From Limisphaerales bacterium (lineage in GTDB: Bacteria; Verrucomicrobiota; Verrucomicrobiia; Limisphaerales; SXTU01), in NCBI GenBank assembly GCA_009773355.1, contig WRPG01000009.1, positions 1-64,000 on the forward strand: a stretch of DNA of 64,000 nt, read 5' to 3'. The notes beneath the pieces were generated by a model, which was given only the letters and a program-made list of their open reading frames with translations, ran no database searches and was not told the origin of the DNA. Below, piece by piece: positions 2,549-26,652 of this stretch (the first letter of the stretch is position 1; every line of letters starts with the position of its first letter). The translations under genes were made by a program, and so were the position numbers.

Positions 2549-2926
2549 CTTCCAAAACACCCCAGTAAAATCAAGGAATTCCTAGCTTTTGCATAGATTT
2601 GAAAGCAGTCAAAACGTATGCAGAACGTATGCAAATTGGCGATTTTTGGGGGTCTTTTTCACTGGCCTTCATGGTCGTTCACAGCCGTTCAATTCGGCTG
2701 CCGGTCACAGCCAGAAGCCGGTTCCAGAGAACTTTTTTCTCTCCACTAAGAGAACGGGCGCTTCCTCACAAGCGGGTCGCTCTCGGTAACAGCCCCCCAT
2801 TCCGTGTCATAAGCCTGTGAGACGGACTGTTTCTGTCTCGTGAACGCAGGCCTTTTCGGCCCGCCTCACCTCATCCCGCGCCGGCCCTTCGCCAGCGCGT
2901 CCCCGCAACCCTCAACCCCATCCCTC
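2549..2926. other. Gene-free stretch between tRNA-Glu and the accessory block
   Basis: No convincing gene is visible. The first 100 bases are AT-richer than their surroundings and contain a near-direct repeat (AACGTATGCAGAACGTATGCAAA, about 2612-2635). The short plus-strand frames here show no recognisable domain. It could hold a decayed integrase start or the promoter of the downstream block; neither is demonstrated. Confidence 0.4.
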
Positions 2927-3436
2927 ATGGCCATCACCCTTGAAGCGAATTACAGCAAGAAGCTCGGTCTGCCGGGCTACTCCTCCCACCAATACATGCT
3001 CACCGTCCGCGCCGAGTTGAGCGACATCAGCCAAGTCGGCCCGGAGAGCCAGCGGCTCCACGCCCTGCTCCAGGCCAGCGTGGACCGCGAACTCCAGCAG
3101 CCCGGCTGGCTGCCCGAGCCAAAGCCCGCCACCGGCAACGGCCGCCCCGCCGCCACCAATGGCAACGGACATCAGCCCCGCAACGGCACGGCTCAACCGC
3201 CCGCCGAGCGCTGGGTCTGCTCGCCCAAGCAGCAGGCGCTCATCCTCAAAATCGTCGAGGAGCACCAGCTCGACAAGAACGCCATCGAGCAGCTCGCCCA
3301 GGACCGCTTCGGCACGGGTGTCAAACAGCTCAAGACCCTCGAAGCCTCCGGGCTGATCGAGGAACTCATGGCCAAGCATCCCCGCCAGCGCGCCAACGGC
3401 CACGCCCCGCAGCGCTCGAACTACGCCGTGCGATGA
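2927..3436 (+). CDS. Hypothetical protein, first gene of the accessory block
   Basis: 169 residues starting MAITLEANYSKKLGLPGYSS, at the ATG following an A/C-rich leader (CAACCCTCAACCCCATCCCTC) without a Shine-Dalgarno site. The N-terminal ~65 residues look like a compact alpha/beta domain, followed by a low-complexity Gly/Asn/Pro linker. A predicted helical C-terminal domain (about 100-155) contains KQQALILKIVEEHQLDKNAI and resembles a small UBA- or helix-hairpin-type fold. This N-terminal type is often seen in ICE and plasmid hypothetical proteins, by recollection only. Its stop overlaps the nuclease ATG by ATGA, implying co-translation. Confidence 0.75.
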   Translation: MAITLEANYSKKLGLPGYSSHQYMLTVRAELSDISQVGPESQRLHALLQASVDRELQQPGWLPEPKPATGNGRPAATNGNGHQPRNGTAQPPAERWVCSPKQQALILKIVEEHQLDKNAIEQLAQDRFGTGVKQLKTLEASGLIEELMAKHPRQRANGHAPQRSNYAVR

Positions 3437-4245
3437 TTGCGACCCTTGAACCCCAGGCCGCGTCCGCGCGGCCCATCGAGGAACTCCGCGCCACCGCCAG
3501 CGCCTCGCGCCTGAACACCTGGCTCAGTTGCCGGTTGAAGTTCTACTTCCACTACGTGCTGGGCATCAGGAAGCCGCGCACCGCGTCGCTCTACGTCGGC
3601 CACGCCGTGCATGGCGTGCTCAAGCTGTGGAACCAGGCGCGGTGGCGGCGCGACGTGCTCACCACCGAACAGTTGAAGCGGCGCTTCAACACGCTCTGGT
3701 GGCAGGACCAGCGCCACTCACCCGTGCGCTGGGACGACGGCGAGGAAGCGGATGAAAAGCAGACCGCGTGGTCGCTGCTGGACCTCTACTTCCGCGAATC
3801 GCCCATCCCGCCCAACGAACGGCCGCAGGCCGTCGAGGTCAGCGTCGAGGCCGACCTGTCGGCGCACGGCCTGCCCCGGTTGATCGGCATCCTCGACCTC
3901 GTGCGGGCCGGGCGGCGCATCGTGGACTTCAAGACCGTGGGCCAGACGCCCAGCGACGAGAAGGCCATCCACGCGCACCAGGTGCAGCTCACGGCCTACG
4001 CGCTGCTCTACCGGGCCAACGCGGGCGACATCGAGGGCGGGCGCGACCTGCACCATCTGGTGAAAACCAAGACGCCGAAGCTCGTGGTCACGCAGCAGGG
4101 GCCGATGACGGAGGCGGAGCGCACGCGCCTGTTCAAGCAGTTGGAGAGCTACAGCGAGGGCGTGGCGCGGCAGGACTTTGTGCCCTCGCCCGGCTTGCAA
4201 TGTTCCTTCTGTTCGTTTCTGCCGGACTGCAAAGCCTGGCATTGA
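3433..4245 (+). CDS. PD-(D/E)XK nuclease with Fe-S cysteine set (Cas4/AddB-like)
   Basis: 270 residues. The nuclease core shows H60, the catalytic Asp155 in LIGILDLV, Asp165-x-Lys167 in IVDFKTV, and the Q-x-x-x-Y motif QLTAYALLY near 185-193. Cys33 near the N-terminus plus Cys257, Cys260 and Cys266 near the C-terminus (CSFCSFLPDC) match the four-cysteine 4Fe-4S staple of Cas4, AddB and related RecB-family exonucleases. This predicts a DNA end-processing nuclease. It overlaps the upstream gene (ATGA) and is followed two bases later by a small gene. Neighbouring ligase and clamp genes support a DNA-repair or recombination role for the block. Confidence 0.88.
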   Translation: MIATLEPQAASARPIEELRATASASRLNTWLSCRLKFYFHYVLGIRKPRTASLYVGHAVHGVLKLWNQARWRRDVLTTEQLKRRFNTLWWQDQRHSPVRWDDGEEADEKQTAWSLLDLYFRESPIPPNERPQAVEVSVEADLSAHGLPRLIGILDLVRAGRRIVDFKTVGQTPSDEKAIHAHQVQLTAYALLYRANAGDIEGGRDLHHLVKTKTPKLVVTQQGPMTEAERTRLFKQLESYSEGVARQDFVPSPGLQCSFCSFLPDCKAWH

Positions 4246-4247
4246 CC

Positions 4248-5287: not shown

Positions 5288-5539
5288 ATGAACCACGACT
5301 CACCCCCTGTCCCATCCCCGGCCCGCACCCTGAAGATCGAGGCCGACGGCGACTTCGCCCAAGGCCGGCTCAAGCCGAAGATCCGGCTGATGGGCCACTG
5401 GCTGGAACGGGCCGGCTTCGCGCCCGGCGGCCGGGTCCACATCACCTGTGAACGGCCCGGCGTGCTGGTCCTGCGCGAAGTTGCGCCCGACCGCAGCCCG
5501 CCGCGCCAGATGGCCGAACGGCTGACTGACCCAACCTGA
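5288..5539 (+). CDS. SymE-like (type I toxin family) protein
   Basis: 83 residues. The core RLKPKIRLMGHWLERAGF followed by GGRVHITCERPGVLVLRE matches the SymE family pattern (I-R-L-x-G-x-W-L-x-x-A-G-F then G-x-x-V-x-V and G-x-L-V-I), a swapped-hairpin AbrB-like fold. In Escherichia coli SymE is an SOS-induced RNA- or nucleoid-associated toxin repressed by the antisense RNA SymR. Here it follows the previous gene by 6 bases and precedes the ligase. Whether an antisense RNA exists is not evident. The protein could be a DNA-binding adaptor with no toxic activity. Confidence 0.75.
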   Translation: MNHDSPPVPSPARTLKIEADGDFAQGRLKPKIRLMGHWLERAGFAPGGRVHITCERPGVLVLREVAPDRSPPRQMAERLTDPT

Positions 5540-11097: not shown

Positions 11098-11214
11098 CAC
11101 TCCCGTCTTCGTGGCGAAAGTCGAAACGCCCTCCGGGCGTCTGTGCGTCATGCGCACACTGACGAGACTCGCAAGCTCCCAGCACCAGCAACCCCAAACC
11201 AACAAACACACAGC

Positions 11215-11436
11215 ATGAAAAACATCACGGTCAAATACGGCGTGGACAGCATCACCAAGCAGGTCGAGGACGGCTTCACCTTCGGCGACCTGCAGGACAG
11301 CGACACCTTCAAGGCGGCGCTGGGCTTCGGTGACCGCACCAAGACGCTGGTCAGCGGCATCGAGCAGTCGCCCGACACCGTCATCCCGGCCGGGGCCACC
11401 GTCGTCGTGGAGACCGCCGCCAACACCAAGGCGTAA
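11215..11436 (+). CDS. Ubiquitin-like beta-grasp protein (ThiS/MoaD/Ub-type)
   Basis: 73 residues. The layout matches a beta-grasp fold: a first strand pair (KNITVKYGVDS, TKQVEDG), then FTFGDLQDSDTFKAALGF as turn and helix (compare TVGDLL in ThiS/MoaD and Ubls), then strands TKTLVSGIEQ and the DTVIPAGATVVVET end. The C-terminus is AANTKA, with no Gly-Gly, so it either needs processing or is recognised differently. It is preceded by an A/C-rich leader and followed by a strong hairpin. The downstream E2-like, E1-like and JAMM genes support a Ubl role. It is not clearly the PRTRC protein C type. Confidence 0.72.
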   Translation: MKNITVKYGVDSITKQVEDGFTFGDLQDSDTFKAALGFGDRTKTLVSGIEQSPDTVIPAGATVVVETAANTKA

Positions 11437-11454
11437 GCCCAAACCAAACCAACT

Positions 11455-11492
11455 GCGCAGGCCCGCTTCCTTCACCGGGAGCGGGCCTGTGC
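11455..11492 (+). terminator. Hairpin with T run between Ubl and E2-like genes
   Basis: GCGCAGGCCCGCT (11455-11467) pairs with AGCGGGCCTGTGC (11480-11492), followed by TTTCCCC. This is the most terminator-like structure in the block. It would permit partial termination, giving more Ubl transcript than E2/E1 transcript. Confidence 0.6.
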
Positions 11493-11502
11493 TTTCCCCA
11501 AC

Positions 11503-12198
11503 ATGGAATCCACCGAAATCCTCCTGCGCGCCGACGGCTCGCTCGTCGAGCGCACCGTCCGCGAACGCGAACTCAACGCCGGGCCGGCCGTGCTCGATGC
11601 GCTGACCGAGTCGGTCACGCGCTCCGTGCGGAACGTGCTGCGGCTCCCCGAGTGGGGCGCGGTGCACGCCAACGTCGGCCTTGATGACACGCTCTACACC
11701 GTGGCCCTGGACCGGCTGCCGCTGCACACACGGTTCCGCCTCGTCGCGGATGTGCTCGTCCCGGCCTTTGCCGCCGAGAGCGACCTTGAGCTGGCGCTCG
11801 TGTGGCAGGCACCCAAGGACATGCGCCTCGCCTTCGCGATCCACACCGAGGCTGCGGACGGCGCGGTCGTCATCCTCAACAACTACCTGTTCGCCTGCGA
11901 CACCCGGAACCGGGCGTATCGCCTGCCGCTCCCGAACCTGTTTGACGACTGCAAGGTCTGCACGGGTGAGTTTGCGCGCACGCAGCCTTCCGGCGCGGCG
12001 GCCGTGGCCGCCAGCATCGAGCAGTTCCGCGCCTCCCAGTGGAACGCGGACCTGATGCGGACGGTGGAGAAGTCGCAGCAGTGCTTCCGCTTCCAGCCGA
12101 CGAACGACACGTTCACGACGCTGCCCGTCGCGGTGCCGGACTGGACCACGCTCTGTGACAAGGTCTCGACGGCCGTGTCGGAAAGGATCGTGTTGTGA
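11503..12198 (+). CDS. Prokaryotic E2-like protein (PRTRC_B / Prok-E2_D type)
   Basis: 231 residues. The segment YRLPLPNLFDDCKVCTGEF (about 139-157) matches the family signature I know from PRTRC system protein B and the E2 family D proteins (L-P-x-x-N-x-[FY]-D-D-x-x-V-C-x-G). Cys153 is then the predicted catalytic cysteine. Upstream strands (LELALVWQAP, LAFAIHT) fit the UBC beta meander. Iyer, Burroughs and Aravind described such E2-like proteins in bacterial operons with E1, Ubl and JAB genes. It follows the Ubl gene by 66 bases and overlaps the next gene by GTGA. Family call from memory of motifs. Confidence 0.68.
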   Translation: MESTEILLRADGSLVERTVRERELNAGPAVLDALTESVTRSVRNVLRLPEWGAVHANVGLDDTLYTVALDRLPLHTRFRLVADVLVPAFAAESDLELALVWQAPKDMRLAFAIHTEAADGAVVILNNYLFACDTRNRAYRLPLPNLFDDCKVCTGEFARTQPSGAAAVAASIEQFRASQWNADLMRTVEKSQQCFRFQPTNDTFTTLPVAVPDWTTLCDKVSTAVSERIVL

Positions 12199-12521
12199 GC
12201 ACGGCGAAACATCCGCTCCTGCCCCTCGTGCAGGAGCTGCGCGTGTGCCCGACGCGGGACACGAGCCTCACCGAGCAGTCCCTGCGCGACGCCTGGGACC
12301 GCTTCAAAGGCAACGGCTGGGACATGGGGCGGCAACCACCGTTCTCCGTGCTGGCCGCGCTGGTCATCCATGATGAAGTGGCGGCCACGCTGCTGACCAC
12401 AGAGGAACTCGGTCAGTTGATCGCCCTCGGTGAGCTGGCGCTTAACCGCTACCGCGAACGCACCCAACCACTCAACCACCTCGGCAAGCTCCTTGTCGCA
12501 ACCATCAAAGAAAACCCATGA
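12195..12521 (+). CDS. Hypothetical protein between E2-like and E1-like genes
   Basis: 108 residues starting at GTG 12195 (GTGA overlap with the E2-like stop) and ending in an ATGA overlap with the E1-like gene, so it is tightly coupled to both. Mostly helical, with one Cys (ELRVCPTRDTSL). No domain recognised. Its position suggests an accessory subunit of the conjugation cassette. Confidence 0.65.
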   Translation: MSTAKHPLLPLVQELRVCPTRDTSLTEQSLRDAWDRFKGNGWDMGRQPPFSVLAALVIHDEVAATLLTTEELGQLIALGELALNRYRERTQPLNHLGKLLVATIKENP

Positions 12522-13183
12522 ACTACCTCATCGGCTGCGGGGGCGTTGGCTCGGCCATCGTCCCCTCGTTCTGCCGGCTCAAAGCCCCACAGGAAGTGAC
12601 CCTTGTGGACGGCGACACGATCGAACACAAGAATCTGGATCGGCAGATGTTTGATGCCGGCCAGGTCGGGAAGAACAAGGCGTCGGCGCTGGCGGGGAAG
12701 TTTGGTTGTCACGCGCTGCCGCAGTGGTTCAGCCGGGGCAGCCTGCGCCTGACGCGGGCCGACTGGCTGCTGTGCCTGGTGGACAACCACCGCACGCGGC
12801 TGGAGGCCATCGAGTCGTGCGACGAGCACGGCTGCCAGGCCGTGTTCGCCGCCAACGAGACGCACTCGGCGGAGGCGTATTACTACCGGCGGGCTTGGAA
12901 GGGCACGCCCCGCGACCCGCGCGTGTATTACCCGGAGCTGCTCACCGACCGTTCGGGCGATCCCCGGGCCGCCGCCATCGGCTGCACCGGCGAGGCGCAG
13001 GAGCGCAACCGGCAGTTGGTGTCGGCGAACCTGATGGCGGCGGCGTTGGCGGAGCATCTCTACGTGCTCTGGCACTGGAAGGCTCCGCGCCTCGATCGGG
13101 ACACGGTCGAACGGCTGCCGCACAAACTCGTCGCCAACCTCACGCGCTTGGAGACGCACACGCTGGCGGGGAGGCTCGCATGA
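12518..13183 (+). CDS. ThiF/E1-like Ubl-activating enzyme
   Basis: 221 residues. The adenylation fold starts directly with the nucleotide-binding loop GCGGVGS (6-12). It continues with VDGDTIEHKNLDRQMF (30-45, the usual D-x-D and N-x-x-R-Q elements), Lys54 in GKNKA and Asp89 in CLVDN. Cys156 in AAIGCTGEAQ is a candidate thioester cysteine. It is shorter than MoeB/ThiF proteins at the N-terminus because the cassette form begins at the Rossmann loop. PRTRC systems encode a similar ThiF-family protein. It overlaps genes on both sides (ATGA). Confidence 0.85.
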   Translation: MNYLIGCGGVGSAIVPSFCRLKAPQEVTLVDGDTIEHKNLDRQMFDAGQVGKNKASALAGKFGCHALPQWFSRGSLRLTRADWLLCLVDNHRTRLEAIESCDEHGCQAVFAANETHSAEAYYYRRAWKGTPRDPRVYYPELLTDRSGDPRAAAIGCTGEAQERNRQLVSANLMAAALAEHLYVLWHWKAPRLDRDTVERLPHKLVANLTRLETHTLAGRLA

Positions 13184-13800
13184 GCGCGGTGCTCACCCCG
13201 CCGGCTCTGGCGGCGCGCAAGTGTCTCATCGGGCAGGTGCTCGGACCGCAGATGCTGGCGCTGCTGGAGCGCGTGCCGCGCAACCCGCAGGTGCGTGCGC
13301 TGGTGCTCAAGCTCGCCGGCAAACTTCCCCCGCCCGAGTGCGAGACGTTCGAGCAGGTGAAGGAGTGGATCGAGACGCACTGCGAGCCGCGCAAGGTGGC
13401 GAGGTCTTCGCCGCCCGCCGCCCGCCGGGTGGTCGAGGAAGGCATCCGCCTCACGGTGCGCTTCAGCGACACCGAGTATGGCCGGGCCGATTACTCGGTC
13501 CGCCGCCATGCACGGGAGGAGTTTCATCTGGACGCCGACGACCTGATGGAGCTGGTGCGGACGGCGATAGAGAACGGCGACAGTCTCGATGAGATCGTCG
13601 AGGCCGCCGCGCGGAAGATTGATGACGATGCGTGGGAGCTGTGCGACCCGAGCATGGATGACACCGGCGACTACGACTACTCCAACCACGATGTCTCCGA
13701 CACGCAGGACTGCGAGACCACGTTCGACCGGGGCGACCTGCGCCGGGTGATCCTCGCCTTCCTCCGCGAGCGCCATCCTGAACTCGCCGCCGAACTGTGA
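13180..13800 (+). CDS. Hypothetical acidic protein coupled to the E1-like gene
   Basis: 206 residues beginning MSAVLTPPALAARKCLIGQV at the ATGA overlap with the E1-like stop. An N-terminal helical domain (1-80) is followed by a middle alpha/beta segment (RLTVRFSDTEYGRADYSV). A very acidic stretch comes next (DDDAWELCDPSMDDTGDYDY), and the end is helical. No family recognised. Co-translation with E1 suggests a role in the same system, possibly as substrate or adaptor. Confidence 0.62.
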   Translation: MSAVLTPPALAARKCLIGQVLGPQMLALLERVPRNPQVRALVLKLAGKLPPPECETFEQVKEWIETHCEPRKVARSSPPAARRVVEEGIRLTVRFSDTEYGRADYSVRRHAREEFHLDADDLMELVRTAIENGDSLDEIVEAAARKIDDDAWELCDPSMDDTGDYDYSNHDVSDTQDCETTFDRGDLRRVILAFLRERHPELAAEL

Positions 13801-13815
13801 CTGTCGTCGCGCTCA

Positions 13816-13926
13816 TTCAACGCAGAGGACGCAGAGGACGCAGAGGACGCGGAGAGGCGCGGAGAAGAAAACTCTTCCGGCAGTCTTCTCTGCGTTCCTC
13901 TGCGTTCTCCGCGCCTCCGCGTTGAA
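13816..13926. repeat. Inverted repeat, CGCAGAGGA word family
   Basis: TTCAACGCAGAGGACGCAGA and tandem GGACGCAGA copies on the left pair with TCTGCGTTCCTCTGCGTTCT and CGCGTTGAA on the right; the inner stem is GGAGAAGA/TCTTCTC. It lies between the acidic protein gene and the JAB gene. Confidence 0.8.
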
Positions 13927-13954
13927 GGATGCGCCACCCGTTCACCGAAAGGCT

Positions 13955-14020
13955 GGCAGACGAATGGGGGCAAACGAATAAATCCCTTTCTTCCCATTCG
14001 TCTGCCCCCATTCGTTTGCC
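13955..14020. repeat. Inverted repeat, CAGACGAATGGGGGCAAACG word family
   Basis: GGCAGACGAATGGGGGCAAA (from 13955) is matched by CCCATTCGTCTGCCCCCATT and CGTTTGCC (to 14020). The right part repeats its own words, so the arms pair in two registers. It immediately follows the inverted repeat at 13816-13926. Confidence 0.75.
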
Positions 14021-14044
14021 ATTCCCTCCGAACTCCCAACTCAA

Positions 14045-15010
14045 ATGATGACCCTGACCCAACTCAACCAGACCAAGCTCAGTGAAACCAAAGACGTGCC
14101 CGGCCTCCTGTCCTGCCGGGTGGATTACGAGGTCAAGTCGGCTCAGGGCCGGCTCGACTACACCGGCCCGCCCATCGCGCCGGAACTCTGGCATCAGGTG
14201 CTGTCCTTCTTCCGGTGGACGCACAAGGAGATGAACAGCGAGAGCCAGGTAAGGCTCTACGTGAACCTCCGGCTCGGTCGCTGGGGCGCGTGGGCCTTCC
14301 CGCAGGAGGCCCGCACCGGCATGACCGCCCGGGAACTCCCGGTGCCGGAAACTCCGGAGCAGGCGCTCACGCGCTTCGCTTCGTGGAACTCCGAGCCGTC
14401 CGATGACTGGCTCTACTTCGGCACCGTGCATCATCACTGCGCGGCCAGCGCGTTCCAGTCGTCCACGGACGAGCAGAACGAGCGCAATCAGGATGGCCTG
14501 CACCTGACGGTGGGCCGCATGGACGCGGAGCACCACGACGTGCATGCCCGGTTCTACCTGGGCGGCAACGCCTATGAGCCGGACCTGAGCCGGTTCTGGG
14601 CGGTGGACTCCGCGCTGGCCGCGTTGCTCCCGCCGGAAGTGCTGCCACTCGTGGCCCGCTTCCAGATGGGGGCGAAAGTGACGATGGACTTCCCCGATGC
14701 CTGGCGGGCAAACCTGATCGAGGTCCGGGAGCAGCGGCGCGAACGCCGGGAACTGGTCCACGCCCCGCGCTGGCAGCTCGAACTGCCGGAAGTGGATCAG
14801 CCCTATCGCTTCCGGCTGGACGATGCGCTGGAGGACATCCATCGCCGGTCAGGGCACAACGGCATCACGGAGCAGCAGTGGCTGGCCGAACTGGGCCGGC
14901 TCGCCGCCGATGATGTGAGCCAACTCCTCTTCACCACCTGTCTCGAACACGGCGTGCATCCCGACGAGCTCCTCGCCGAGCTGGCCACCGCCGAGACGGC
15001 AATGGCCTGA
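14045..15010 (+). CDS. JAMM/JAB metalloprotease (deubiquitinase-like)
   Basis: 321 residues (ATG at 14045; 14048 is an alternative). The motif HHHCAASAFQSSTD (129-142) aligns position by position with the JAMM motif of AMSH-type deubiquitinases (H-x-H, then S-x-D after ten residues): His129, His131 and Asp142 are the predicted zinc ligands. The following DGLHLTVG (150-157) is typical of prokaryotic JAB domains. Glu66 in ESQVRLY is the candidate catalytic glutamate. The C-terminal ~100 residues are helical and unassigned. It is separated from the E1 module by two inverted repeats. It probably processes the Ubl or removes it from targets. Confidence 0.8.
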   Translation: MMTLTQLNQTKLSETKDVPGLLSCRVDYEVKSAQGRLDYTGPPIAPELWHQVLSFFRWTHKEMNSESQVRLYVNLRLGRWGAWAFPQEARTGMTARELPVPETPEQALTRFASWNSEPSDDWLYFGTVHHHCAASAFQSSTDEQNERNQDGLHLTVGRMDAEHHDVHARFYLGGNAYEPDLSRFWAVDSALAALLPPEVLPLVARFQMGAKVTMDFPDAWRANLIEVREQRRERRELVHAPRWQLELPEVDQPYRFRLDDALEDIHRRSGHNGITEQQWLAELGRLAADDVSQLLFTTCLEHGVHPDELLAELATAETAMA

Positions 15011-15127: not shown

Positions 15128-16077
15128 ATGCCTTCTGAACTCTTGGCCGTTCTGCGCCAGACCATCCTCAGCGCCAAACCCCGCCGGCCCCGCCACTCGC
15201 GGCTCCGCTCAAACTGGAGCACGGGTGGCTGCTGCCTTACCTGCTCACCATCGAAGGCCAGCTCTGGGGCCGCTGGGACCATTGGCACGACACCATGCTC
15301 GCCGGCCGCGTCATCGGCTCCATCCCCCACATCGACTGGGAATCCCACCCCGCCGCCCGCCGGATGCTTGAAGCCGCTCTCAACTGCACCACCACGCACG
15401 GGAGCTGGCAGGGCTGGGACTCGTGGCAGGTGTTCGACTACTTCCTGGACTGGCTGCTGTTTGGCTTCGGCCATCGCGGTCAGTCGGTGTTGCCGGTCGA
15501 ACCCGCCGACTTCACCGGGGCCAGTGAGCGGCTCTACCAGGTGTTCAACCTCGAAACGCTGCTCGCGTGGCCGCACGACTACCTCGGCGAAATCCTCGCC
15601 GAAAACCGCCACGGCCAGCACCTCGGGTTCTACCCGACGCCGATGGCGGTCGCCCGGATGATGGCGGCGATGACGCTGGGTGGTGAGGATGCCCGGTGCA
15701 AATCGGTGTGTGACCCCTGCGTGGGCACGGGCCGGTTGCTGCTCGCGGCCTCCAACCACTCGTATCGCCTCTACGGCTGCGACCTCAATCCGACCGTCCT
15801 CAAGGCCACGCTGGTCAACGGCTGGCTGTATGCGCCGTGGCTGGTGCGGCCGTTCCCGTTCCTCGACCCGCACAACTGCGATCCCGCTGCCAGCGCGGCC
15901 GTCAGCGACTCCCTCATCGCGCAGGCGCGGCCCGAGCAACTCCAACTCACTGAGCACGACGGGGACTCGCAGGCGCTCTTCGAGCCCTTGAAGAAGCGAC
16001 GACTCCGACGACGCCCAGTCGCCCACGAAGCCGGCAATCCGCCTGACGTGGGGCTTGCTTTGGGACTCCCAACCTGA
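15128..16077 (+). pseudogene. N6-adenine methyltransferase-like gene with apparent frameshift
   Basis: The natural start MPSELLAVLRQTILSAKP (15128) is in one frame, while the body (LKLEHGWLLPYLLTIEGQLW onward) is in another. A one-base shift between about 15175 and 15200 would join them; in the second frame no ATG, GTG or TTG exists before 15295. The body carries methyltransferase landmarks: GFYPTPMAVARMM, motif I DPCVGTGRLLLAAS, then GCDLNPTVLKATLVNG. The catalytic NPPF/Y motif is missing. It may be a sequencing error in a live gene or a degenerate enzyme. Confidence 0.65.
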
Positions 16078-16200: not shown

Positions 16201-17460
16201 TTAACTATCATGCCGCAGAGCTTGGGCGGTGAGAGTTGGCGGGTGAACTGATTGTCCTCCAACAGCACCGGAGCCTTTGCTCGGTGCGTCCTCAAAAGTT
16301 GGGTGTTCAACCGCCTGCATGCCGCGCAACAATTCCGGCCCCGAAACACAGTTGGGTATCCGCTCCTGCTCCAACAACAAGCCGGTCTCGATCAGGCGAT
16401 GGTAGATGGCCCGTTCCTCCTGGGTCAGCTCCAACAGTTTCTGGCTGGTCGAGGGAGATGCCTTCACGGCAAAGCCGGCGTGCGTGTCGAACGTGCGCTC
16501 ATCCATCAGCACGCTTTGGATCGAGGGGAACGCCGTGCGGAGTTGCGCGAGCGTCTCAAACCCGTGCGAATCCAAATCACCCCAGTAGAGCAGCCGACAT
16601 TGGTTCAACCAGGCCACCGTGGTCAGCATGGTCGCCGCGTCGCCGGATCCCCAGATGGCGATGGTCTTCGGCAGCACTGGCAGCGTGAGGAAGGTCATCT
16701 CGTTCTCCACGATCAGCACGACGACGTCTGCGACTGGCAAGCCGCGAAACTGGTCCAGTGGCGTGGCAAAGTCGCTGACCGGGAAGCCAAGCCGTCCGGC
16801 CAGTGCGGGATCCAGCAAACGCGCTCGCACCATCGGCTGCTTGAACCGGAAGCCAAACCGAGTCTCGAAGCGGCTGACATCCGGCCCCACGGTCGCGGGG
16901 GCCACCACCGGCAGCAACTCGGCGAGCACGCCGGTGTGACGCTCGATGAACTTCGTGTCGGCCACGACGGGAAGCTCACGGAGGTAGCAGTCCGGGCGGG
17001 GATGTTCCTTCAGGTAGCCGCACACGTTCAGCAGCCCTTCCCATGCGCCGGCATGATGCACGACTTTGAGCGGCTTGGCCTGTGCCCACGAGCGAAGTTC
17101 GGGACAGCGCGCCACAATGAGATCATAGTCCGCTTGGAACTGCCGGACCTCGGATGACTTGCCCAGGAAGCGCACGAAATCGTTCTGAGTTGGAAACACG
17201 ACCTCGTCGGGCACCTTCTGCAATCCCAAGCGCCGGAACTGGTGCTCCTTCCAAGTGATGGCATAGCCAAATCCTGCCTGCTCCTTGGACTGGCTCCGCA
17301 AGGCCTCGATGGCCGCCCGGTCGGTGGCGAAGTCGTTCGGCCGCGACAGGCCGGAACCAAACACGGCCAGCGGAAGGAGCGCTTCTCCGGTGCATAGTGA
17401 CCGGAGGAACTCCTCGTAGCGCTTCGACGCCCGTCGGCGGATCTGATCAGGGGTCAGCAT
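16201..17460 (-). CDS. jetD: Wadjet protein JetD (DUF3322 + DUF2220 nuclease)
   Basis: 419 residues. The N-terminal half is the DUF3322-type domain. The C-terminal half shows the DUF2220/Toprim-like signature, with Glu252 in VENEMTF, GSGDAA (271-276) and YWGDLDSHGF (292-301) carrying Asp295 and Asp297. In Wadjet systems JetD is the topoisomerase VI-A-like nuclease that cleaves closed circular plasmids held by the JetABC SMC-like complex. Its start overlaps the jetC stop by 14 bases. It is the last gene of a complete jetABCD operon. Catalytic residues look intact. Confidence 0.93.
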   Translation of the reverse strand: MLTPDQIRRRASKRYEEFLRSLCTGEALLPLAVFGSGLSRPNDFATDRAAIEALRSQSKEQAGFGYAITWKEHQFRRLGLQKVPDEVVFPTQNDFVRFLGKSSEVRQFQADYDLIVARCPELRSWAQAKPLKVVHHAGAWEGLLNVCGYLKEHPRPDCYLRELPVVADTKFIERHTGVLAELLPVVAPATVGPDVSRFETRFGFRFKQPMVRARLLDPALAGRLGFPVSDFATPLDQFRGLPVADVVVLIVENEMTFLTLPVLPKTIAIWGSGDAATMLTTVAWLNQCRLLYWGDLDSHGFETLAQLRTAFPSIQSVLMDERTFDTHAGFAVKASPSTSQKLLELTQEERAIYHRLIETGLLLEQERIPNCVSGPELLRGMQAVEHPTFEDAPSKGSGAVGGQSVHPPTLTAQALRHDS

Positions 17461-20400
17461 GGCCGGGTTGGATGGGTGCCTGTCGGGCCAGGTGCTCGCG
17501 GATCTCCTCGACCGAAATGGTGCGGACGGTGGAGGCCTGCGTGGTCGGGTTCAGCGTCAGGTGGTAGCTCGACACAAACGGCTCGACCACCCGCGCCCGG
17601 GCGTCGAACGGACAAACGATGAGCAGTTGCAGGTGAAACTGCGCGAACAACTGGAGCGCGTATCGTGAGTTGGTTTCGTCGGAACGAGAAAACATCTCGT
17701 CCACCACGACGAACCGGAACGAGTCGGGATTCTGCCGGTTCTTGGCGATGCCATACTGGTAGGCGACCGCCGAGGCGAGGATGGTGAATGCCAGCTTCGC
17801 CTTCTGTCCGCCCGACTTGCCGCTGGTGTCCTCGTAGATGTTCTTCTGCTCCCCGCTTTCGCGGTCCCGCTCCTCCACCGCGAACGTGAGCCAGTTGCGC
17901 GTGTCGGTGACCTTGGCGGTCCAGTCCGGACGCGCGCGGAACTGGTCAATCAGGTCGCTGATGCGGCGAAAGGCGTTCTCCCGCGCGGCGGCATCGGGAG
18001 CGAGCCCGAAATCGAGGCACGCCTTGAGCCGGTGGCGGAAGTTGCGGATGTCCGGGTCGGACGCCTGGGTGGCCCGAATCTTGATGAAGGTGCGGGGCGA
18101 ATACTCAATGCCCTTGAGCGCCGTGTTCAGGTGCTCGATCTTGCCCAGCATCTCGTCGCAGTGATCCTGCAACGCATCCTGGAACTTCGCCACATGCACG
18201 AGCACATCGCGGCTCATCAACTCCTGGAACTTCTCCTCGTGGCGCGGCAGGTCATCCCGGGCCACCGCTTGCTGGAAGCGGAGGAAGTCCGGGATGAATT
18301 CCTCCCCGGCGCCCAGGTCCGCCTTCAACTCTGTGAACTCGCCCAGAAACCGCTCCATCTGGCGGGCCACGGCCTCCACCACTTTCCCGCGTGAGTCACT
18401 GAGCCTGACAAGTTCGTTCCCGACCGCAGTTTGAGCCTTGAGCTTGGCGACCGACTCGTTCGCAATCGAAAGCTCGGTGTCGCCCAGAAGCGCCGTGAAA
18501 GCCGGGGCGAAATCGGCCAGGTCGGACTCATTCACGCCAGACAGCGTGGACAGGCACTCGCCCAATCGGGCGCTGAAATCGGTCTGCCGGGTAAGCAGTC
18601 CGCCCCGGTGCCCGATGGCTCGGGTTTTGGCCGCGTCCTGTTCGCCGATGGCCGCCTCCACTCCGGCCAACTGCTCGCTTAACTGTTTGATCTTGTCTGA
18701 ACTCCGCTCCAGTTCGTGTTTCTGCTGTTCCAGCTCGGCCTGCCTCGCCGCAGCGGAACGCCAGTCAATCTCGGCGAAATCACGATAACCATGCAGGCGT
18801 CCGGCTTGGGTGGCACGATGCGTGGCGGACCGCTGCCGCGACTCGGCCCTGCTGATGGCGTCCGCCTGTTGCTGGGCGGCAAGCTTCAGTTGATGCTGCT
18901 CCGCTTCCAGCGTGCGGATCTTTTCCCGGTTCGACCAGCCGAGGATATGGTGGCGCGGATCATTGATGTCCGTCGAGTCGTCCTTGGTGTGCCGGGTTCC
19001 AGCGGAACGGATCAGCCCCTGTCGCGTCAGCGCGAAGCCGGTGGAGTTTTCAAACTCCTGCAGACTCTCGCAGCACCGGTAGTTGAAGTGGGTTCTCAGC
19101 TCGCCCTCCACCCAGCGGGACAGCGGGTGGCCTTCCTTCACCCGCATCCGCTCGATGACGCGGCCCCGATCGTGGGGAGGCTGCGATGTCGGGGGGGCCT
19201 TGGGCACGCGATGATAAACGACGCGTCCACGGAGGTTGTGATCGTTGATGAACCGGTTGACCTGCGAATACAGGTGCTCCGGCACCAGCAAGGAGAGGCC
19301 GAAACCATGCAGCAAGCGTTCCAATGCCCCCCGCCATTGCGCGTGATGCTCCGGCCGCACGTCCATCAACTCGCCGGCGAAGGGAAGGTCCGCCACTTCA
19401 ACTTCCGCACCGTCGGCGATGAACTGGCGCATCCGACGGTGCGCTTCCGGGATCAGGTCGGGTCGCTGGCGGAGTGATTGCAGTTCGGCCTCCAAACTGG
19501 CGTGCTGCTGCCGCAACCGCCCGAATTCCTGCGTTGCGGTCGCCTTCGCGTCCGAAGCCTCCGTGATGATCCCGCTCTGCTCCTTCTGCTCCTCCTCGGC
19601 CCAACGCCTCAGCTCACCAAACTTCGCCTCTGTCGTGACCTCCTCCTTTACCCCCAGCTCCGCAAGGCACTTGTGATACTGGCCGGCCAGCACTTGGCGC
19701 TGCTGACCGGTTTTCATGACCGCCGTCAGCTCCTCCTTCACGCGCGCCAGCTCCTGGCCCACTTCGTCGTTGGCAATGGCCTGCCTGAGGTTGAACTTTT
19801 GCCGGTCCAACTCTTCGAGCGCTTTCGTCAGCCCGCTGATCTCGCCGTCCAGCGACCGGACATGTTCCGCCAAGGCGGCCAGCTCGGACTCCAACAGCGA
19901 CCTGAGCCGCAGGGCGAAACACGCCGGCAGGGCGTCGCGGAGCCGCACGGCCGCGCGAACCTGCTCGTCGAGGCCGTTGATTTCCGCAGCCTTCTCCACG
20001 ACGGGCTGGAGCAGTTCCAGTTGCCGCTTGGCGCGCTGAATTGCGTTCCGGCACTCAATGAGGTCTTGGTAATGCCGGTCGAGGCGCTCCACCTGTTCCT
20101 TGGTGTCCAGCCGTTCCAGCATGTGGTCGCGGATGAAGCCGCTCACCTGGGTGATCTCCTTGATGGCCACCGTCTGGCTGAACAGTGCGAGGGTCGTGGT
20201 GGACTCCATGCGCAGATAGTGCACTGCTTTCTCGGCATACGGGGGAAAGCTGTCCTCGACCTCGAAGCCACGCTGACGAAACGCCTTCTTCCACGCCCGG
20301 GATTCGCCTAGGCCGGTGAAGTCCCTGTTAATGGACCGTTCGTCGCGCGCGATCAGGTAGAGGTGGCGGACGTCCTCCTCCTGAATCCAGATCAACTGCG

Positions 20401-20806
20401 CCAGGGTCACGGCCTCGCCGGTGGCCGCGTTGGTGAAGCAGGCCAGCAGGATGGACGGCGGTCCCCCGGGCTTGCGCAGGAACTTGGTCTGCGCCCGTGA
20501 CTCCTCGGATTCACTGTGGCTGCCATAGGCCCCGAGCACGTAGGTTCGCTCATCGCGCTCCTTCTTCTTGGCTCCTCCCGCGGAGAGGTTGTAGTTCCGC
20601 TTGGTCCGGGGCACCAGCAGCGTGAGCAGGGCGTCCACGAGCGTGGATTTGCCGCTGCCGTTCTCGCCGATCAGCAGGGCCGTCTGCCCCTGCGGATCAA
20701 GGATGTGGACCTTTTCGTGAAAGGTGCCCCAGTTGCGGATTTCCAGCCGTTGCAGCCGGAAGCCGGGCGGCAGGTGCGGGCTATTGCTGGTCGTGCGCGT
20801 TGACAT
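17447..20806 (-). CDS. jetC: Wadjet protein JetC (MukB-like SMC ATPase)
   Basis: 1,119 residues from MSTRTTSNSPHLPPGFRLQR. Walker A is GENGSGKST (47-55), preceded by LEIRNWGTF as in MukB/SbcC-type SMCs. Long coiled-coil arms follow, and a C-terminal GKSGGQKAKLAFTILASAVA signature and FVVVDEMFSRSD Walker B lie in the last 150 residues. The protein would extrude DNA loops and sense small circular DNA. I prefer the ATG at 20806; a longer frame to 20983 would invade jetB with low-quality sequence. It overlaps jetB by 26 bases. Confidence 0.95.
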   Translation of the reverse strand: MSTRTTSNSPHLPPGFRLQRLEIRNWGTFHEKVHILDPQGQTALLIGENGSGKSTLVDALLTLLVPRTKRNYNLSAGGAKKKERDERTYVLGAYGSHSESEESRAQTKFLRKPGGPPSILLACFTNAATGEAVTLAQLIWIQEEDVRHLYLIARDERSINRDFTGLGESRAWKKAFRQRGFEVEDSFPPYAEKAVHYLRMESTTTLALFSQTVAIKEITQVSGFIRDHMLERLDTKEQVERLDRHYQDLIECRNAIQRAKRQLELLQPVVEKAAEINGLDEQVRAAVRLRDALPACFALRLRSLLESELAALAEHVRSLDGEISGLTKALEELDRQKFNLRQAIANDEVGQELARVKEELTAVMKTGQQRQVLAGQYHKCLAELGVKEEVTTEAKFGELRRWAEEEQKEQSGIITEASDAKATATQEFGRLRQQHASLEAELQSLRQRPDLIPEAHRRMRQFIADGAEVEVADLPFAGELMDVRPEHHAQWRGALERLLHGFGLSLLVPEHLYSQVNRFINDHNLRGRVVYHRVPKAPPTSQPPHDRGRVIERMRVKEGHPLSRWVEGELRTHFNYRCCESLQEFENSTGFALTRQGLIRSAGTRHTKDDSTDINDPRHHILGWSNREKIRTLEAEQHQLKLAAQQQADAISRAESRQRSATHRATQAGRLHGYRDFAEIDWRSAAARQAELEQQKHELERSSDKIKQLSEQLAGVEAAIGEQDAAKTRAIGHRGGLLTRQTDFSARLGECLSTLSGVNESDLADFAPAFTALLGDTELSIANESVAKLKAQTAVGNELVRLSDSRGKVVEAVARQMERFLGEFTELKADLGAGEEFIPDFLRFQQAVARDDLPRHEEKFQELMSRDVLVHVAKFQDALQDHCDEMLGKIEHLNTALKGIEYSPRTFIKIRATQASDPDIRNFRHRLKACLDFGLAPDAAARENAFRRISDLIDQFRARPDWTAKVTDTRNWLTFAVEERDRESGEQKNIYEDTSGKSGGQKAKLAFTILASAVAYQYGIAKNRQNPDSFRFVVVDEMFSRSDETNSRYALQLFAQFHLQLLIVCPFDARARVVEPFVSSYHLTLNPTTQASTVRTISVEEIREHLARQAPIQPGHADP

Positions 20807-21371
20807 GGGCTTGCAGTTGTTCCCGCAGTTCCTTGAGTGTCTCGACCGGAAACCGCGCCTTGAGGATGCGCCGGACTTCAAAGCGCTCCTCGCCCTCGGC
20901 TCCCGGCAGCCGGCGGAGCAATCCCATCTCCTCGGCCTTGCGGATGGCCCCCTCGATTCGCTTGTCCGTCCGAATTTCGTCATTGGTGGCGGAGAAGAAC
21001 GGCGCGGCGAGCTGCACCAGGTCTTCCATCCGCAGGATCAGCCGGCTCTCATCGTGAATCTTCTCGTCGAACCGAAGGAGCTGTTCCCGCAACACGACGC
21101 CGATGATCGCGACGCCCTTGGTCAGTTTGTCGCGGCGAAAGAGCCGGGGCATCCCGGCCTGTTCCTCCTGTTGGGCCTGCTTGAGGTAGGCGAAGCCGTC
21201 GTCCTCATGCACGACCAGTTCAAGGCCGATTTCCTGAAAGTAGTGTTCGATGTGGGGGCGATGGCGCAGGAGCGCGGGCCACAGCTCCTCGTCTTCCGAA
21301 TAGACGGCGTCCTGGAGCAGCCGGACTTTGACGGCGGCCGAGGGAAAGGTTCTTTGCGCTGGCGGACTCAT
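20781..21371 (-). CDS. jetB: Wadjet protein JetB (DUF4194, MukE-like)
   Basis: 196 residues from MSPPAQRTFPSAAVKVRLLQ. Winged-helix kleisin-associated subunit: GLELVVHEDDGFAYLKQ and LRREQLL-like helices are typical of DUF4194, and the C-terminal RRILKARFPVETLKEL is conserved-looking. The ATG overlaps the jetA stop by ATGA, and its end overlaps jetC. In the Wadjet complex JetA, JetB and JetC form the MukBEF-like motor. Confidence 0.92.
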   Translation of the reverse strand: MSPPAQRTFPSAAVKVRLLQDAVYSEDEELWPALLRHRPHIEHYFQEIGLELVVHEDDGFAYLKQAQQEEQAGMPRLFRRDKLTKGVAIIGVVLREQLLRFDEKIHDESRLILRMEDLVQLAAPFFSATNDEIRTDKRIEGAIRKAEEMGLLRRLPGAEGEERFEVRRILKARFPVETLKELREQLQAHVNAHDQQ

Positions 21372-22813
21372 GTGTTGGAGAAGATGGCTTGGGGGATGCG
21401 ATACCGGCGGGCCAGGTCGCCGGGAAGCTCCACCCAGTCGTAAGTGTCCAGCACGGCGTGCGGGCCGTCGGTCTCGGCGATGAGGAGATACGCCAGCACT
21501 TCGAGGATGCCGTTGCGTGGCGGCCGGAGCGCCAGCAGCTCCGGGAGGGTGATCTGGACCCGCGTTTGCAGACAGTCCCGGACGTTCTGCCGGAGCCGCT
21601 CGAAGTCCACCGGGTGCAGGCGCAGGAATGCCTCCAGGGTTTCCCGATAATCCCCGCCTGCGCTGACCTCCAGGCTGCCGCCAAACTCGACCTTGGCCGG
21701 CGGCGACCACGGCGACTTGGACATGAGCGAGGCGAGCGCCAGGCCCGCGTCCACCTCAAGCAGGTCGGTCTGAGGCGGGAGGTCGCGCGTGCGATGAGCG
21801 AGCGTCTTGATCTCCTGAAGCAGATGGCTGAGTTCGCGGCGCTCTGCTGACTCGCGCACATCGAGCACCCGGCGAAGTTGCGCCACGAGCCGCTCGTTCG
21901 ACGCCACGACCTTGTTGCCTTCGGCCCGCAGGCTGGGTTGGAGCCGTCGGAGCAGAATGTCCTCCCGGAGGTCGTCGGCCAGCGCGGGAATCGCGTAGGC
22001 CTGCGCCACCAACTCATCGAACTGCCGCCGCCGTTCCGGGGCGAGCAGGAAGTCCCAGAAGGCGTAGAAGCTCTGGCCCTGGCTCGACTGGCGGAGTTGC
22101 TCCTGCGCGTCGAGGGTGTGGCCGACGATGGCCCCTCGGGTAGCCCCTGCTTCCGCCTGCTGAACCGCGATGTTCTCCGTGACACGGCGGAAGTGGCGTT
22201 CCACCTCGCGGAAGTCGCCCAGCAGCCGGCGCGCGGTCTCCAGCAGGGCCGCGAACCGCTCGTTGACCTGGGTGGCGGTGAAAACCGGTGCCACGCCCGT
22301 CCGCTGAATCTCCTCGATCTGCTGTTGCAGCCGGGCCTGCTCCTCCCGCAGCCGTCGGATCCGGACATCCGGCTCGCGGGTCGAGTTCTCAACGACCTCC
22401 GTGAGGGTGGCGGCGAGGCTCTTGAACTTGGACTCGGTGCCGACATGGCTTCTGGGCTTCAGGGTTTCGAGCCACTGAAACACCAGTTCAATTTCGGGCG
22501 TCAGCTCGTAAACCGGCTCGTCCTCCCCGTCTGGCTGGTGACGGCGCAGATAGCCATGCGCTGGATCGGTCCATTCCAGCAGGTAATCCTTGGCGCTCTT
22601 GCCGGCGGGCGCATCCCCGGCGTCGCGCAGCTCCTCCAGTTCAGCCTCCAGCACCGCGCGCAATCGACTCTCCGCAAGGACCGACCGGTGCTCTCGTTTG
22701 AACGCCGTGGCCAGCACCGCCAACACCAGCGGTGCATTGTCAGCCCGCAGCAGCCGCAAGGACGCGGACTGGCTGAATTGCAGCAATAACTCGGCGTGGT
22801 TCACGGGTTCCAC
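21368..22813 (-). CDS. jetA: Wadjet protein JetA (DUF3375, kleisin/MukF-like)
   Basis: 481 residues from a GTG start at 22813 (first residues MEPVNHAELLLQFSQSASLR). Typical DUF3375: an N-terminal winged-helix region, YELTPEIELVFQWLETL near 100-117, a central coiled coil, and a C-terminal winged helix. It is the kleisin-like bridge of the JetABC motor and the first gene of the operon; its promoter should lie in the 194-base gap to the Shango-like helicase gene. Confidence 0.93.
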   Translation of the reverse strand: MEPVNHAELLLQFSQSASLRLLRADNAPLVLAVLATAFKREHRSVLAESRLRAVLEAELEELRDAGDAPAGKSAKDYLLEWTDPAHGYLRRHQPDGEDEPVYELTPEIELVFQWLETLKPRSHVGTESKFKSLAATLTEVVENSTREPDVRIRRLREEQARLQQQIEEIQRTGVAPVFTATQVNERFAALLETARRLLGDFREVERHFRRVTENIAVQQAEAGATRGAIVGHTLDAQEQLRQSSQGQSFYAFWDFLLAPERRRQFDELVAQAYAIPALADDLREDILLRRLQPSLRAEGNKVVASNERLVAQLRRVLDVRESAERRELSHLLQEIKTLAHRTRDLPPQTDLLEVDAGLALASLMSKSPWSPPAKVEFGGSLEVSAGGDYRETLEAFLRLHPVDFERLRQNVRDCLQTRVQITLPELLALRPPRNGILEVLAYLLIAETDGPHAVLDTYDWVELPGDLARRYRIPQAIFSNT

Positions 22814-23007: not shown

Positions 23008-25314
23008 CTAGGACAACCGCTGTCTGGCCCCTTCGATTGCTGCAATCGCCTCCGCCACCGCGAGGCGCTCGATTGCGGCTGCCTGATCGAGGAGTTCGTC
23101 CGGGATGAACTCGTCGAACTTTTCCACGGCGCGCGGTGTGACCAAGTGCCCCAAGGCGATGGGGTCATACTTGGTGGCAGTCAGCAACTTGAGGAAGTCG
23201 CGGAACCCGCCCATTCCTTCCACCGACAGCCAGAGGGAAAGGCGATCCGTTTCAGCATTTACCTTGTTCGCCTTTGCGAGCAGCGCCAGAGTCCGGAGAC
23301 AGCGCGTGCCGGCCCACGGAAACCAGCGCACGCCACCCGGAGCCGGGAGCACGTCGGTTTTGTCCAGACCGACGGTGTGAGCGACGTGACGGGCGGTGCG
23401 CAGGAGTTCCAACGCTGGCTCATCGAGGAAGGACGGCTCGTCATCGCCAAGCAGCACGGCCTTCATCTCCTGCACGATTCGGGGATGAAGCTCGCCGCCG
23501 CTGCCGACGAAAACGGGTGCCTTCCCTCCGTGGGAGGGAGTCACCCACACCGTCTTCGCCCCGGCGTCAATTTCGCCGACGAGCCAGCGCCGGCCGGCGA
23601 GGATGACAAGCTGTCCAACCGGCGGCACCGCGTCGAAAGCAAGCTCGCCGATCTCGTTCTTCTCATGCCGCACGCTGAACATCTCCGTGCCCTTGAACGC
23701 GGAATAGAAATCTTTGGCCGCCGTGATGCGTTCGCCCGCCGGGGCCAGAATCAAGTCACCGGTCGGCACCTGCTCGATGAGCTGGTGCGCCGCCAGGCCG
23801 CGCAGCAGCCCGGCGAAATCCGCCGGGCCGATCTTTCGGAACGGTCCAGCCACGACCAGCGCGGCGTGCAACCGCGCGGCCGGCATCCCGCCCGTCTGCC
23901 GCAGCCAGCTCAGGATCTGGTGGACGAGCGTGCTGAGGTGCATCCGCTGCTGCTCGGCGGGTTCCAGCCATTTTTCCCGCATGAGCCGGGTCAGCGCGAT
24001 GCCGCGCAGCAGATCGGGAAAGAGCAAATCGGTGAGCCGGCTACCGGCATGAGGCGATTCCTCCCGGACGTAGAGGCGCATGATGGACGACTCCCCTTCA
24101 CGCCGCCCAGAACGCCCAAGACGTTGCACCAGCGACGCGACGCTCCACGGCGGATCTATCTGGCCAACCGACCGCACGGAGCCAATGTCGATCCCCATCT
24201 CCAACGTGCTTGAACAGATGGCGGTGGTCGGAAGACCACTCTTGAGCGCCGTTTCAGTCTCTTCGCGCAGTTCCTTGGCGACCGATCCGTGGTGAATCAT
24301 GAACGGATCATGCGGCCACTTGAGCTTCGTCACTCGATCATGCAGGCGGACGGCGAGTTCCTCGGCCGTGCGCCGGGAGTTCACGAAGACAAGGTTGGTG
24401 GAGGTTGCTAAGTGACGGACGAGGTCTTCGGCGATGTCGTCCAAGTCATCGGGCAGCGCAGGTTCTGAATCCGCTTTGGCCGGCTTGCTCTCCGTGCGGG
24501 GCGATTCACCAGCAGCGAGGAGCTGTTCAGCCGACTTCTTCTGGATGAACTCCCTGGCACTTGCTGGTGTGAGCCGTCGTGCGCCGCTCCCGCCCTTGGC
24601 TGGATCGGGTGTCTTCAAGACGCCTTTCAAAGCGAAGCGGATGGAACGGCCGGTCGCGGCATCCTGAATGTGCGTGACAGTCGCCGGTGCGTCGGGAGCC
24701 AGAAAACACTTGCCCATCTCCGGGTCGCCGAGGGTGGCGGACAGGCCAATCATGCGCGGCTGTCGTCCGGTGGCGGCGCGAAGCCGTGAAAGCAGGCTCA
24801 ACAAGTGAACCCCGCGCACGTTGCCGAGAAATGAATGCAGCTCGTCAATCACCACAAACTCCAGGCCGCGATAGAGCCGGGGCACCTGGTTGCCATAGTT
24901 GATGAAGTTCGATTCGAGTGATTCCGGTGTGATGAGCAGGATGCCGCTGGGGTCGCGGCGCAGCGCTTGCTTGTGCGAGGCCGTGACATCCCCGTGCCAG
25001 CGGTGGACGGGGATGTGCATCCGCTCGCACAGGCGGTCCAGCCGGCCAAACTGGTCGTTGATGAGGGCCTTCAACGGCCCGACGTAGATGGCGCGGATGG
25101 AATCTTGTTCGCCTGCCGCCAGGCGGGAAATCACCGGCAGAAATGCGGCTTCGGTTTTGCCGCCAGCGGTGGCCGCGCTGATGAGAACGTGGCCCTCCCC
25201 TTCCAAAAGCGCATGAATGGCCTCCGTCTGAACCGGACGGATTTGCTTCCACCCCAAATCGTAGATGGCGCGCTGCACCCCTTCGTGCAACAAGGCGAAG
25301 GCGGCCTGGCTCAT
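23008..25314 (-). CDS. sngC: DEAD/DEAH helicase of Shango-like system (SngC; BrxHI/Lhr-like)
   Basis: 768 residues. Superfamily 2 helicase with Q-motif RPVQTEAIHAL, Walker A ATAGGKT (48-54), DELH (157-160), motif III SAT and motif VI QRLGRSGRR, plus a long C-terminal part like BrxHI or Lhr-core helicases. The ATG overlaps the sngB stop by one base. The trio TerB protein, BrxD-like ATPase and helicase is the composition of the Shango anti-phage system (Millman et al. 2022). A similar pair occurs in type 2 BREX, but no pglX/pglZ genes are present here. Confidence 0.85.
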   Translation of the reverse strand: MSQAAFALLHEGVQRAIYDLGWKQIRPVQTEAIHALLEGEGHVLISAATAGGKTEAAFLPVISRLAAGEQDSIRAIYVGPLKALINDQFGRLDRLCERMHIPVHRWHGDVTASHKQALRRDPSGILLITPESLESNFINYGNQVPRLYRGLEFVVIDELHSFLGNVRGVHLLSLLSRLRAATGRQPRMIGLSATLGDPEMGKCFLAPDAPATVTHIQDAATGRSIRFALKGVLKTPDPAKGGSGARRLTPASAREFIQKKSAEQLLAAGESPRTESKPAKADSEPALPDDLDDIAEDLVRHLATSTNLVFVNSRRTAEELAVRLHDRVTKLKWPHDPFMIHHGSVAKELREETETALKSGLPTTAICSSTLEMGIDIGSVRSVGQIDPPWSVASLVQRLGRSGRREGESSIMRLYVREESPHAGSRLTDLLFPDLLRGIALTRLMREKWLEPAEQQRMHLSTLVHQILSWLRQTGGMPAARLHAALVVAGPFRKIGPADFAGLLRGLAAHQLIEQVPTGDLILAPAGERITAAKDFYSAFKGTEMFSVRHEKNEIGELAFDAVPPVGQLVILAGRRWLVGEIDAGAKTVWVTPSHGGKAPVFVGSGGELHPRIVQEMKAVLLGDDEPSFLDEPALELLRTARHVAHTVGLDKTDVLPAPGGVRWFPWAGTRCLRTLALLAKANKVNAETDRLSLWLSVEGMGGFRDFLKLLTATKYDPIALGHLVTPRAVEKFDEFIPDELLDQAAAIERLAVAEAIAAIEGARQRLS

Positions 25315-26651: not shown

Positions 26652-26652
26652 A

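Follow-up and report, generated by a model that had tools for sequence, protein, structure and literature searches.

The stretch of DNA analyzed here, 64,000 nucleotides of contig WRPG01000009.1 from a Limisphaerales bacterium (hereafter the window), contains a six-gene cassette at 11215-15010 that probably encodes a self-contained, reversible conjugation pathway for a ubiquitin-like protein (Ubl), travelling on mobile elements and phages. In this reading, two small accessory proteins, sm1 and sm2, would act as adaptors, and a protein of DNA replication or recombination would be the likeliest target. The sequences give strong evidence of a working E1-E2-Ubl-JAB pathway, and we infer from the data below its activity, the roles of sm1 and sm2, and its target. 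All six open reading frames (ORFs) lie on the plus strand in the order Ubl-E2-sm1-E1-sm2-JAB:

11215..11436, plus strand: Ubl modifier of 73 aa with the C-terminus NTKA (alignment, model, fold matches to ubiquitin)
11503..12198, plus strand: E2-like conjugating enzyme of 231 aa, predicted catalytic Cys153, and Asn145 (family profiles, alignment, hhalign)
12195..12521, plus strand: sm1, small accessory protein of 108 aa between E2 and E1 (positional conservation, homology in cellular relatives and a few phages, ratio of nonsynonymous to synonymous substitutions, dN/dS)
12518..13183, plus strand: E1 of 221 aa, ThiF-type adenylation domain, Cys156 (PF00899, E=1.5e-12; alignment; hhalign 99.9% to PRTRC ThiF)
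13180..13800, plus strand: sm2, accessory protein of 206 aa between E1 and JAB (alignment; model with a predicted local distance difference test score, pLDDT, of 80.6; fold searches without a match)
14045..15010, plus strand: JAMM/JAB protease of 321 aa, Glu66, His129, His131, Ser139 and Asp142 (alignment, PRTRC_A match in 20 of 28 members, hhalign 91%)

The six ORFs of the initial annotation were all found in place, and the motifs that it quoted, LPNLFDDCKVCTG, GCGGVGS, NLDRQ and HHHCAASAFQSSTD, can be read in the cassette proteins. Neighboring genes overlap by 4 bases at each of three junctions (E2/sm1, sm1/E1 and E1/sm2). A minus-strand ORF at 13060-13776, which was the choice of the codon scorer, was dropped because the plus-strand sm2 is a conserved protein. 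Between cellular copies, dN/dS was about 0.09-0.32 for Ubl, E2, E1, sm2 and JAB and 0.14-0.47 for sm1, and all cassette genes are intact and under purifying selection. The cassette is thus beyond a chance arrangement, because its order recurs in bacterial and 27 viral contigs and because synonymous change exceeds amino acid change.

Active-site conservation was counted in alignments of 28 E1, 25 E2, 28 JAB and 25 Ubl sequences. The E1 of the window, scanned as a single protein, matched PF00899 and also PRTRC_ThiF, the latter with 35.4 bits against the TIGR03736 cut-off of 144.75 bits. Asp31, Asp33, Arg42, Gln43, Lys54, Asp89 and Cys156 were invariant in all 28 sequences, as were Asn90 and Arg94 across the alignment. 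The E2 scored 16 bits to Prok-E2_D, below the Pfam cut-off, and the same profile matched 17 of the 25 E2 members (best E=0.0003). Asn145 and Cys153 were invariant (25/25), with the Asn eight residues ahead of the Cys, which is the spacing of the eukaryotic HPN motif. In the protease, Glu66, His129, His131, Ser139 and Asp142 were invariant (28/28) and agree with the JAMM pattern E ... HxH(x7)S(x2)D. The window JAB reached 19.2 bits to PRTRC_A (TIGR03735 cut-off, 101.8 bits), and weak matches to this family were found in 20 of the 28 homologues.

Profile-profile comparisons with canonical plasmid PRTRC proteins by hhalign gave 99.9% for E1 with ThiF, 96.7% for E2 with protein B and 91% for JAB with protein A, and every off-diagonal pair remained below 2%. 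By these profiles, E1, E2 and JAB are distantly homologous to PRTRC ThiF, B and A, and their scores fall far short of the PRTRC cut-offs. The E2-like assignment of the initial annotation thereby held at the sequence level, as the protein groups with Prok-E2_D and PRTRC B. The description of the protease as AMSH-type held in part: the motif has AMSH-like spacing, whereas AMSH/STAMBP matched only at E of about 0.5. AMSH was therefore rejected as the nearest family, PRTRC_A being the better match.

The Ubl alone gave no meaningful family match in NCBIfam or Pfam scans. Its AlphaFold model (pLDDT 87) has strands at residues 2-8, 11-17, 42-46 and 62-67, a helix at 23-36 and a loose C-terminus. In a Foldseek search with this model, the best 50 hits were nearly all ubiquitin or ubiquitin-like chains (E about 1e-4), and VIA-align superimposed it on linear di-ubiquitin with a Z of 9.8 and 1.9 Å over 70 residues. 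The model thus has a clear ubiquitin fold, and the beta-grasp call made initially for this 73-residue protein is borne out by the predicted structure and fold searches alike. The conserved end is Asn-x-Lys-Ala with Lys72 conserved, and position 73 is Ala in 22 of the 25 sequences, the others being Gly (L030), Gln and Asn. Several phage Ubls extend beyond this end as variable tails, and tandem pairs of Ubls occur in L025-L029. The tails and tandem copies therefore suggest that precursors are processed, presumably by JAB.

Both accessory genes keep their positions across relatives, in bacteria as well as in viral contigs, which answers the synteny question that the initial annotation had raised about the genes at 12195 and 13180. 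Neither sm1 nor sm2 gave a useful NCBIfam or Pfam match or a match to a PRTRC model. In nearly all 27 viral contigs, E2 and E1 are separated by a small ORF; the sm1 profile recognized only a few of the phage copies, most being too divergent to score. The sm2 protein was recognized in 22 of the 27 contigs, and in L031-L034 its slot holds a different protein of 537-583 aa. For sm2, profile-profile comparison with PRTRC E and F revealed no similarity, a search against PDB sequences gave no match, and fold searches with the model gave no usable match (best Foldseek E=0.75; VIA Z 3.9). Three phage loci, L026 (10710-11912), L027 (10720-11571) and L029 (10756-11862), have ORFs between E1 and sm2 that end in a similar HNH-like HIDHIKP motif and are possible homing endonucleases.

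Relatives of the cassette were found in a few bacterial genomes and in viral contigs. A scan of genome contigs recovered two contigs of metagenome-assembled genomes whose E1 is 77-78% identical. In the taxonomic order that includes the window, an E1 match was found in 9 of 320 genomes, and seven of these, not counting the window, were at 72-81%; across the phylum there were matches in 5 of 388 genomes, four of them remote. The cassette is complete and ordered in L002, L080, L081 and L082; in L003, L083 and L084 it is truncated where the contig or locus ends. Beyond these few genomes of the same order, the nearest relatives were 27 contigs of uncultured viruses from IMG/VR, which fall into 23 E1 clusters at 90% identity. 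Using profiles built here, Ubl-E2-E1-JAB was found in this order and on one strand in 25 of them, and in the remaining two the cassette runs off the end of the locus. In GenBank phages there was no close E1 and no JAB match, and among the genes compared by BLAST, the window and the phages share none apart from the cassette.

A TerL profile directly matched 17 of the 27 viral contigs, with E values from 1e-24 down to a weak 4e-4. In four contigs, the ORFs behind the weak matches measure 607-686 aa. G389, G390 and G392, three contigs that gave no direct TerL match above the threshold, encode homologues of them at about 49-84% identity. These three look like complete ~56-kb genomes because G389 and G390 have direct terminal repeats of 123 and 127 bases, respectively, and the TerL gene of G392 spans the contig ends. 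In G390, RecT was matched by phrog_148 (E=2.5e-66) and a DNA helicase by phrog_16. A scan of eight further large proteins gave no PHROG match, and the phage group is therefore poorly known. In the E1 tree, the cassette family was separated from PRTRC ThiF with 100/99 support, and the window, L002 and L003 were nested inside phage sequences with 90/93 support. However, an approximately unbiased (AU) test did not reject the phages as a single clade (p=0.364), and therefore we claim no direction of transfer between phages and bacteria.

The cassette lies within a tRNA-Glu integrative element of ~83.6 kb that reaches beyond the window. This is concluded because the last 33 bases of the tRNA gene are repeated exactly, and in the same orientation, as an attR-like copy at contig position 86117-86149, the gene for a tyrosine integrase (PF00589, E=4.1e-15) starts about 70 bases from that copy, and AACGTATGCA repeats stand at both ends; these repeats are possible arm sites of the integrase. 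The initial annotation had not noted this element, the Wadjet and Shango systems close to the cassette or, most importantly, the relatives carried by phages. The ligase, clamp and nuclease genes that the initial annotation placed around the cassette proved real by Pfam and, for the clamp, by phmmer. Its view of the cassette as a variant without ParB agrees with the element, in which no ParB gene was found: no ParB_N protein is encoded on the contig, and PF02195 occurs only on other contigs of the genome. The other features of the window are as follows:

2474..2548, plus strand: tRNA-Glu (TTC), the last 33 bases (2516-2548) being attL (ARAGORN)
2610..2634, plus strand: two AACGTATGCA repeats within the left end, with further copies next to the right end (read directly)
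2840..3436, plus strand: uncharacterized protein, no Pfam match; in L081 also ahead of the nuclease and cassette
3433..4245, plus strand: PD-(D/E)XK nuclease (PF12705, E=4.7e-30)
5288..5539, plus strand: SymE-like protein (PF08845, E=5.8e-9); directly before Ubl in L002 and L083
5539..6741, plus strand: WGR and ATP-dependent DNA ligase (PF01068, PF05406); after JAB in L080, 52% identity
6997..8472, plus strand: beta sliding clamp, DnaN-like (phmmer to solved clamps, E=3.6e-7)
15295..16077, plus strand: N6-DNA methylase-like ORF (PF02384, E=2.9e-5)
16201..22813, minus strand: type I Wadjet system (PADLOC; JetD 16201-17460, E=2.3e-126; JetC 17447-20983, E=0)
about 21368-22813, minus strand: at least one further ORF, a possible Jet gene (assigned by position only)
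23008..29598, minus strand: Shango system SngC, SngB and SngA (PADLOC)

A 1036-aa ORF at 30680-33790 (minus strand) has a weak reverse-transcriptase match (PF00078, E=0.0003) and is possibly a defence reverse transcriptase. Two very long ORFs of 2285 and 5610 aa occupy 37846-61642 (minus strand), the first in a stretch of lower G+C (about 55%). Long intergenic inverted repeats consisting of GGCACAGAAGGCACAAAGAGG and its complement were observed at 11025-11110 and 15015-15090; the genome has related copies on well over ten further contigs, which makes them a dispersed family resembling repetitive extragenic palindromic (REP) elements.

Judged on its genes, the cassette is most likely a working reversible conjugation pathway. 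E1, with its ThiF fold, would adenylate the C-terminus of Ubl with ATP and then hold Ubl as a thioester on Cys156. Ubl would be handed to Cys153 of E2, with Asn145 aiding catalysis, and be joined to a target lysine. The JAMM protease would strip Ubl from the target and, where relatives have C-terminal tails or tandem Ubls, trim the precursor. In this scheme, sm1 and sm2 may be dedicated adaptors or target selectors.

Going by the neighborhood, the likeliest target would be a protein of DNA replication or recombination that belongs to the element or phage. In L080, genes for a single-stranded DNA-binding protein (SSB) and a DnaG-like primase precede the cassette, and a WGR-ligase and an AAA protein follow it. 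Neighbors in the phage loci include RecT (7 loci), a DUF2800/PDDEXK-type protein (9) and a helicase-like protein (13), and an exonuclease is also found among the relatives' neighbors. In the ~56-kb phages, the cassette sits in the early replication/recombination block and not in the structural block. Replication and recombination proteins lead as target class because this context recurs in three settings, namely the window, its relatives and the phages. In a bolder version, which we put forward only tentatively and hold to be rather doubtful, the ~56-kb phage lineage carries a complete reversible Ubl system acting on such proteins (sliding clamp, SSB, primase or recombinase). In bacteria and viruses it would be the counterpart of the ubiquitin/SUMO modification of PCNA with a Lys-Ala modifier and two new target-selecting proteins.

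Several observations weigh against a conjugation pathway with such a target. Ubl ends in Lys-Ala instead of the usual Gly, which E1, E2 and JAB would need to tolerate. The E2 lacks a conserved His, no column after Cys153 containing more than 4 His in 25 sequences, and no E3 was recognized. The target argument from the neighborhood is circumstantial, as the early genes of phages tend to lie together in any case, and defence systems share the island. Indeed, Wadjet and Shango lie directly downstream on the same element, and the bacterial Ubl systems Bil and CBASS (cyclic oligonucleotide-based antiphage signaling system) are defensive (PMC11354881, PMC10097602). The cassette might accordingly tag incoming phage proteins, as Bil does, or, like type II CBASS, a sensor of the host. 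We consider such an antiphage role unlikely, since phages themselves carry the same cassette beside RecT, exonuclease and helicase genes. Furthermore, the defence genes lie on the opposite strand and outside the conserved unit, and PADLOC has no model matching E2 or JAB, with E1 matching only the ThiF core of E1-E2 fusions.

The phage versions could instead modify structural proteins during virion or tail assembly, the cellular copies being captured phage genes. Lambda-type phages have a Ubl-JAB pair in tail assembly (PMC1779556), and in Salmonella phage Arash the E1-like gp246 and E2-like gp248 are labelled 'structural protein' after mass spectrometry of purified particles. However, the Arash particle proteome contains many non-structural enzymes, no structural genes were recognized near the cassette in cellular relatives, and the early position of the cassette in the 56-kb phages points away from virion assembly, making this role improbable. 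A ThiS/MoaD-like sulfur carrier for small-molecule or nucleotide modification, with no protein targets, would fit an E1 of the ThiF family, weak ThiS matches in 3 of the 25 Ubls, and MoaD as the best PDB sequence match (E=0.43). It is very unlikely, as the cassette always includes a JAMM protease and an E2-like enzyme whose Cys is invariant, there is no Gly-Gly end, and no rhodanese, sulfurtransferase or cofactor genes were seen in the set. The upstream clamp, downstream N6 methylase and missing ParB recall PRTRC loci, but a degenerate PRTRC cassette, left over from plasmid maintenance after the loss of ParB, E, F and function, is hardly credible for intact genes under purifying selection with invariant active sites, in a variant that forms its own clade apart from PRTRC ThiF (100/99 support).

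If the conjugation pathway proposed above is active, phages would possess a complete ubiquitin-like pathway themselves and not just fall victim to one. We know of no target for E1/E2/JAB/Ubl operons of the PRTRC type, and the recurrent neighbor genes provide a short list of candidates. With only six genes in a fixed order, active sites that do not vary and relatives in phages, the cassette is also an unusually small system to reconstitute. No description of a complete phage-borne set was found in the open-access papers searched, which does not by itself prove novelty.

Comparison with known systems places the cassette close to several of them. Bil (BilABCD) likewise unites Ubl, E2, JAMM protease and E1 within one operon. 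However, BilD combines a Cys domain with two adenylation domains, one inactive and one active, and BilA contains a pair of Ubl domains (PMC11354881), whereas the cassette E1 is a single 221-aa domain and its Ubl is single; Bil also lacks sm1 and sm2. Phage-borne genes of the same broad type of E2, JAB and E1 occur in two cultured phages. In Salmonella phage Arash (OQ632216.1, L085), E2 gp248c, JAB gp247c and E1 gp246c at 1479-4499 are unannotated, and in Acinetobacter phage ME3 (KU935715.1, L086), genes at 224-4361 are annotated as PRTRC system protein A and ThiF. These differ from the cassette in having only about 30% identity over part of E1, the order E2-JAB-E1, no recognized Ubl, and large genomes.

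Operons of the E1/E2/JAB/Ubl kind were described by Iyer, Burroughs and Aravind in 2006 (PMC1779556), the year in which their PRTRC type was predicted. Like the cassette, those of row 6d keep Ubl, E2 (family D), E1 and JAB as separate genes of a single mobile operon, to which further conserved genes belong. The C-terminal Gly of their Ubls and the downstream His of their E2 are not conserved in the cassette. Canonical PRTRC loci have the order dnaN-E-C-x-F-B-A-ThiF-N6 methylase (two plasmids) or ParB-E-C-F-B-A-ThiF (others). In L051 and L053 the N6 methylase comes next, as at 15295 in the window. The unannotated gut scaffold MT835919.1 (L059) has JAB-ThiF-DnaN-N6-methylase-like genes in a row at 1-4992, the methylase being read from sequence. 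The cassette resembles PRTRC in its homologous ThiF, B and A proteins, its small Ubl and its mobile setting. DnaN and an N6 methylase often adjoin PRTRC, and the window has a clamp about 3 kb upstream of the cassette and a methylase-like ORF just downstream. In contrast, the cassette lacks ParB, E and F, and its gene order differs from E-C-F-B-A-ThiF. Protein C mostly ends in Lys-Gly and the cassette Ubl in Lys-Ala; the two, compared by sequence only, gave no NCBIfam match and 1.7% in hhalign. The two accessory genes appear unrelated to those of PRTRC. We therefore regard the cassette as a new variant, associated with phages, of the E1/E2/JAB/Ubl (PRTRC-like) operons already known, and not as PRTRC proper.

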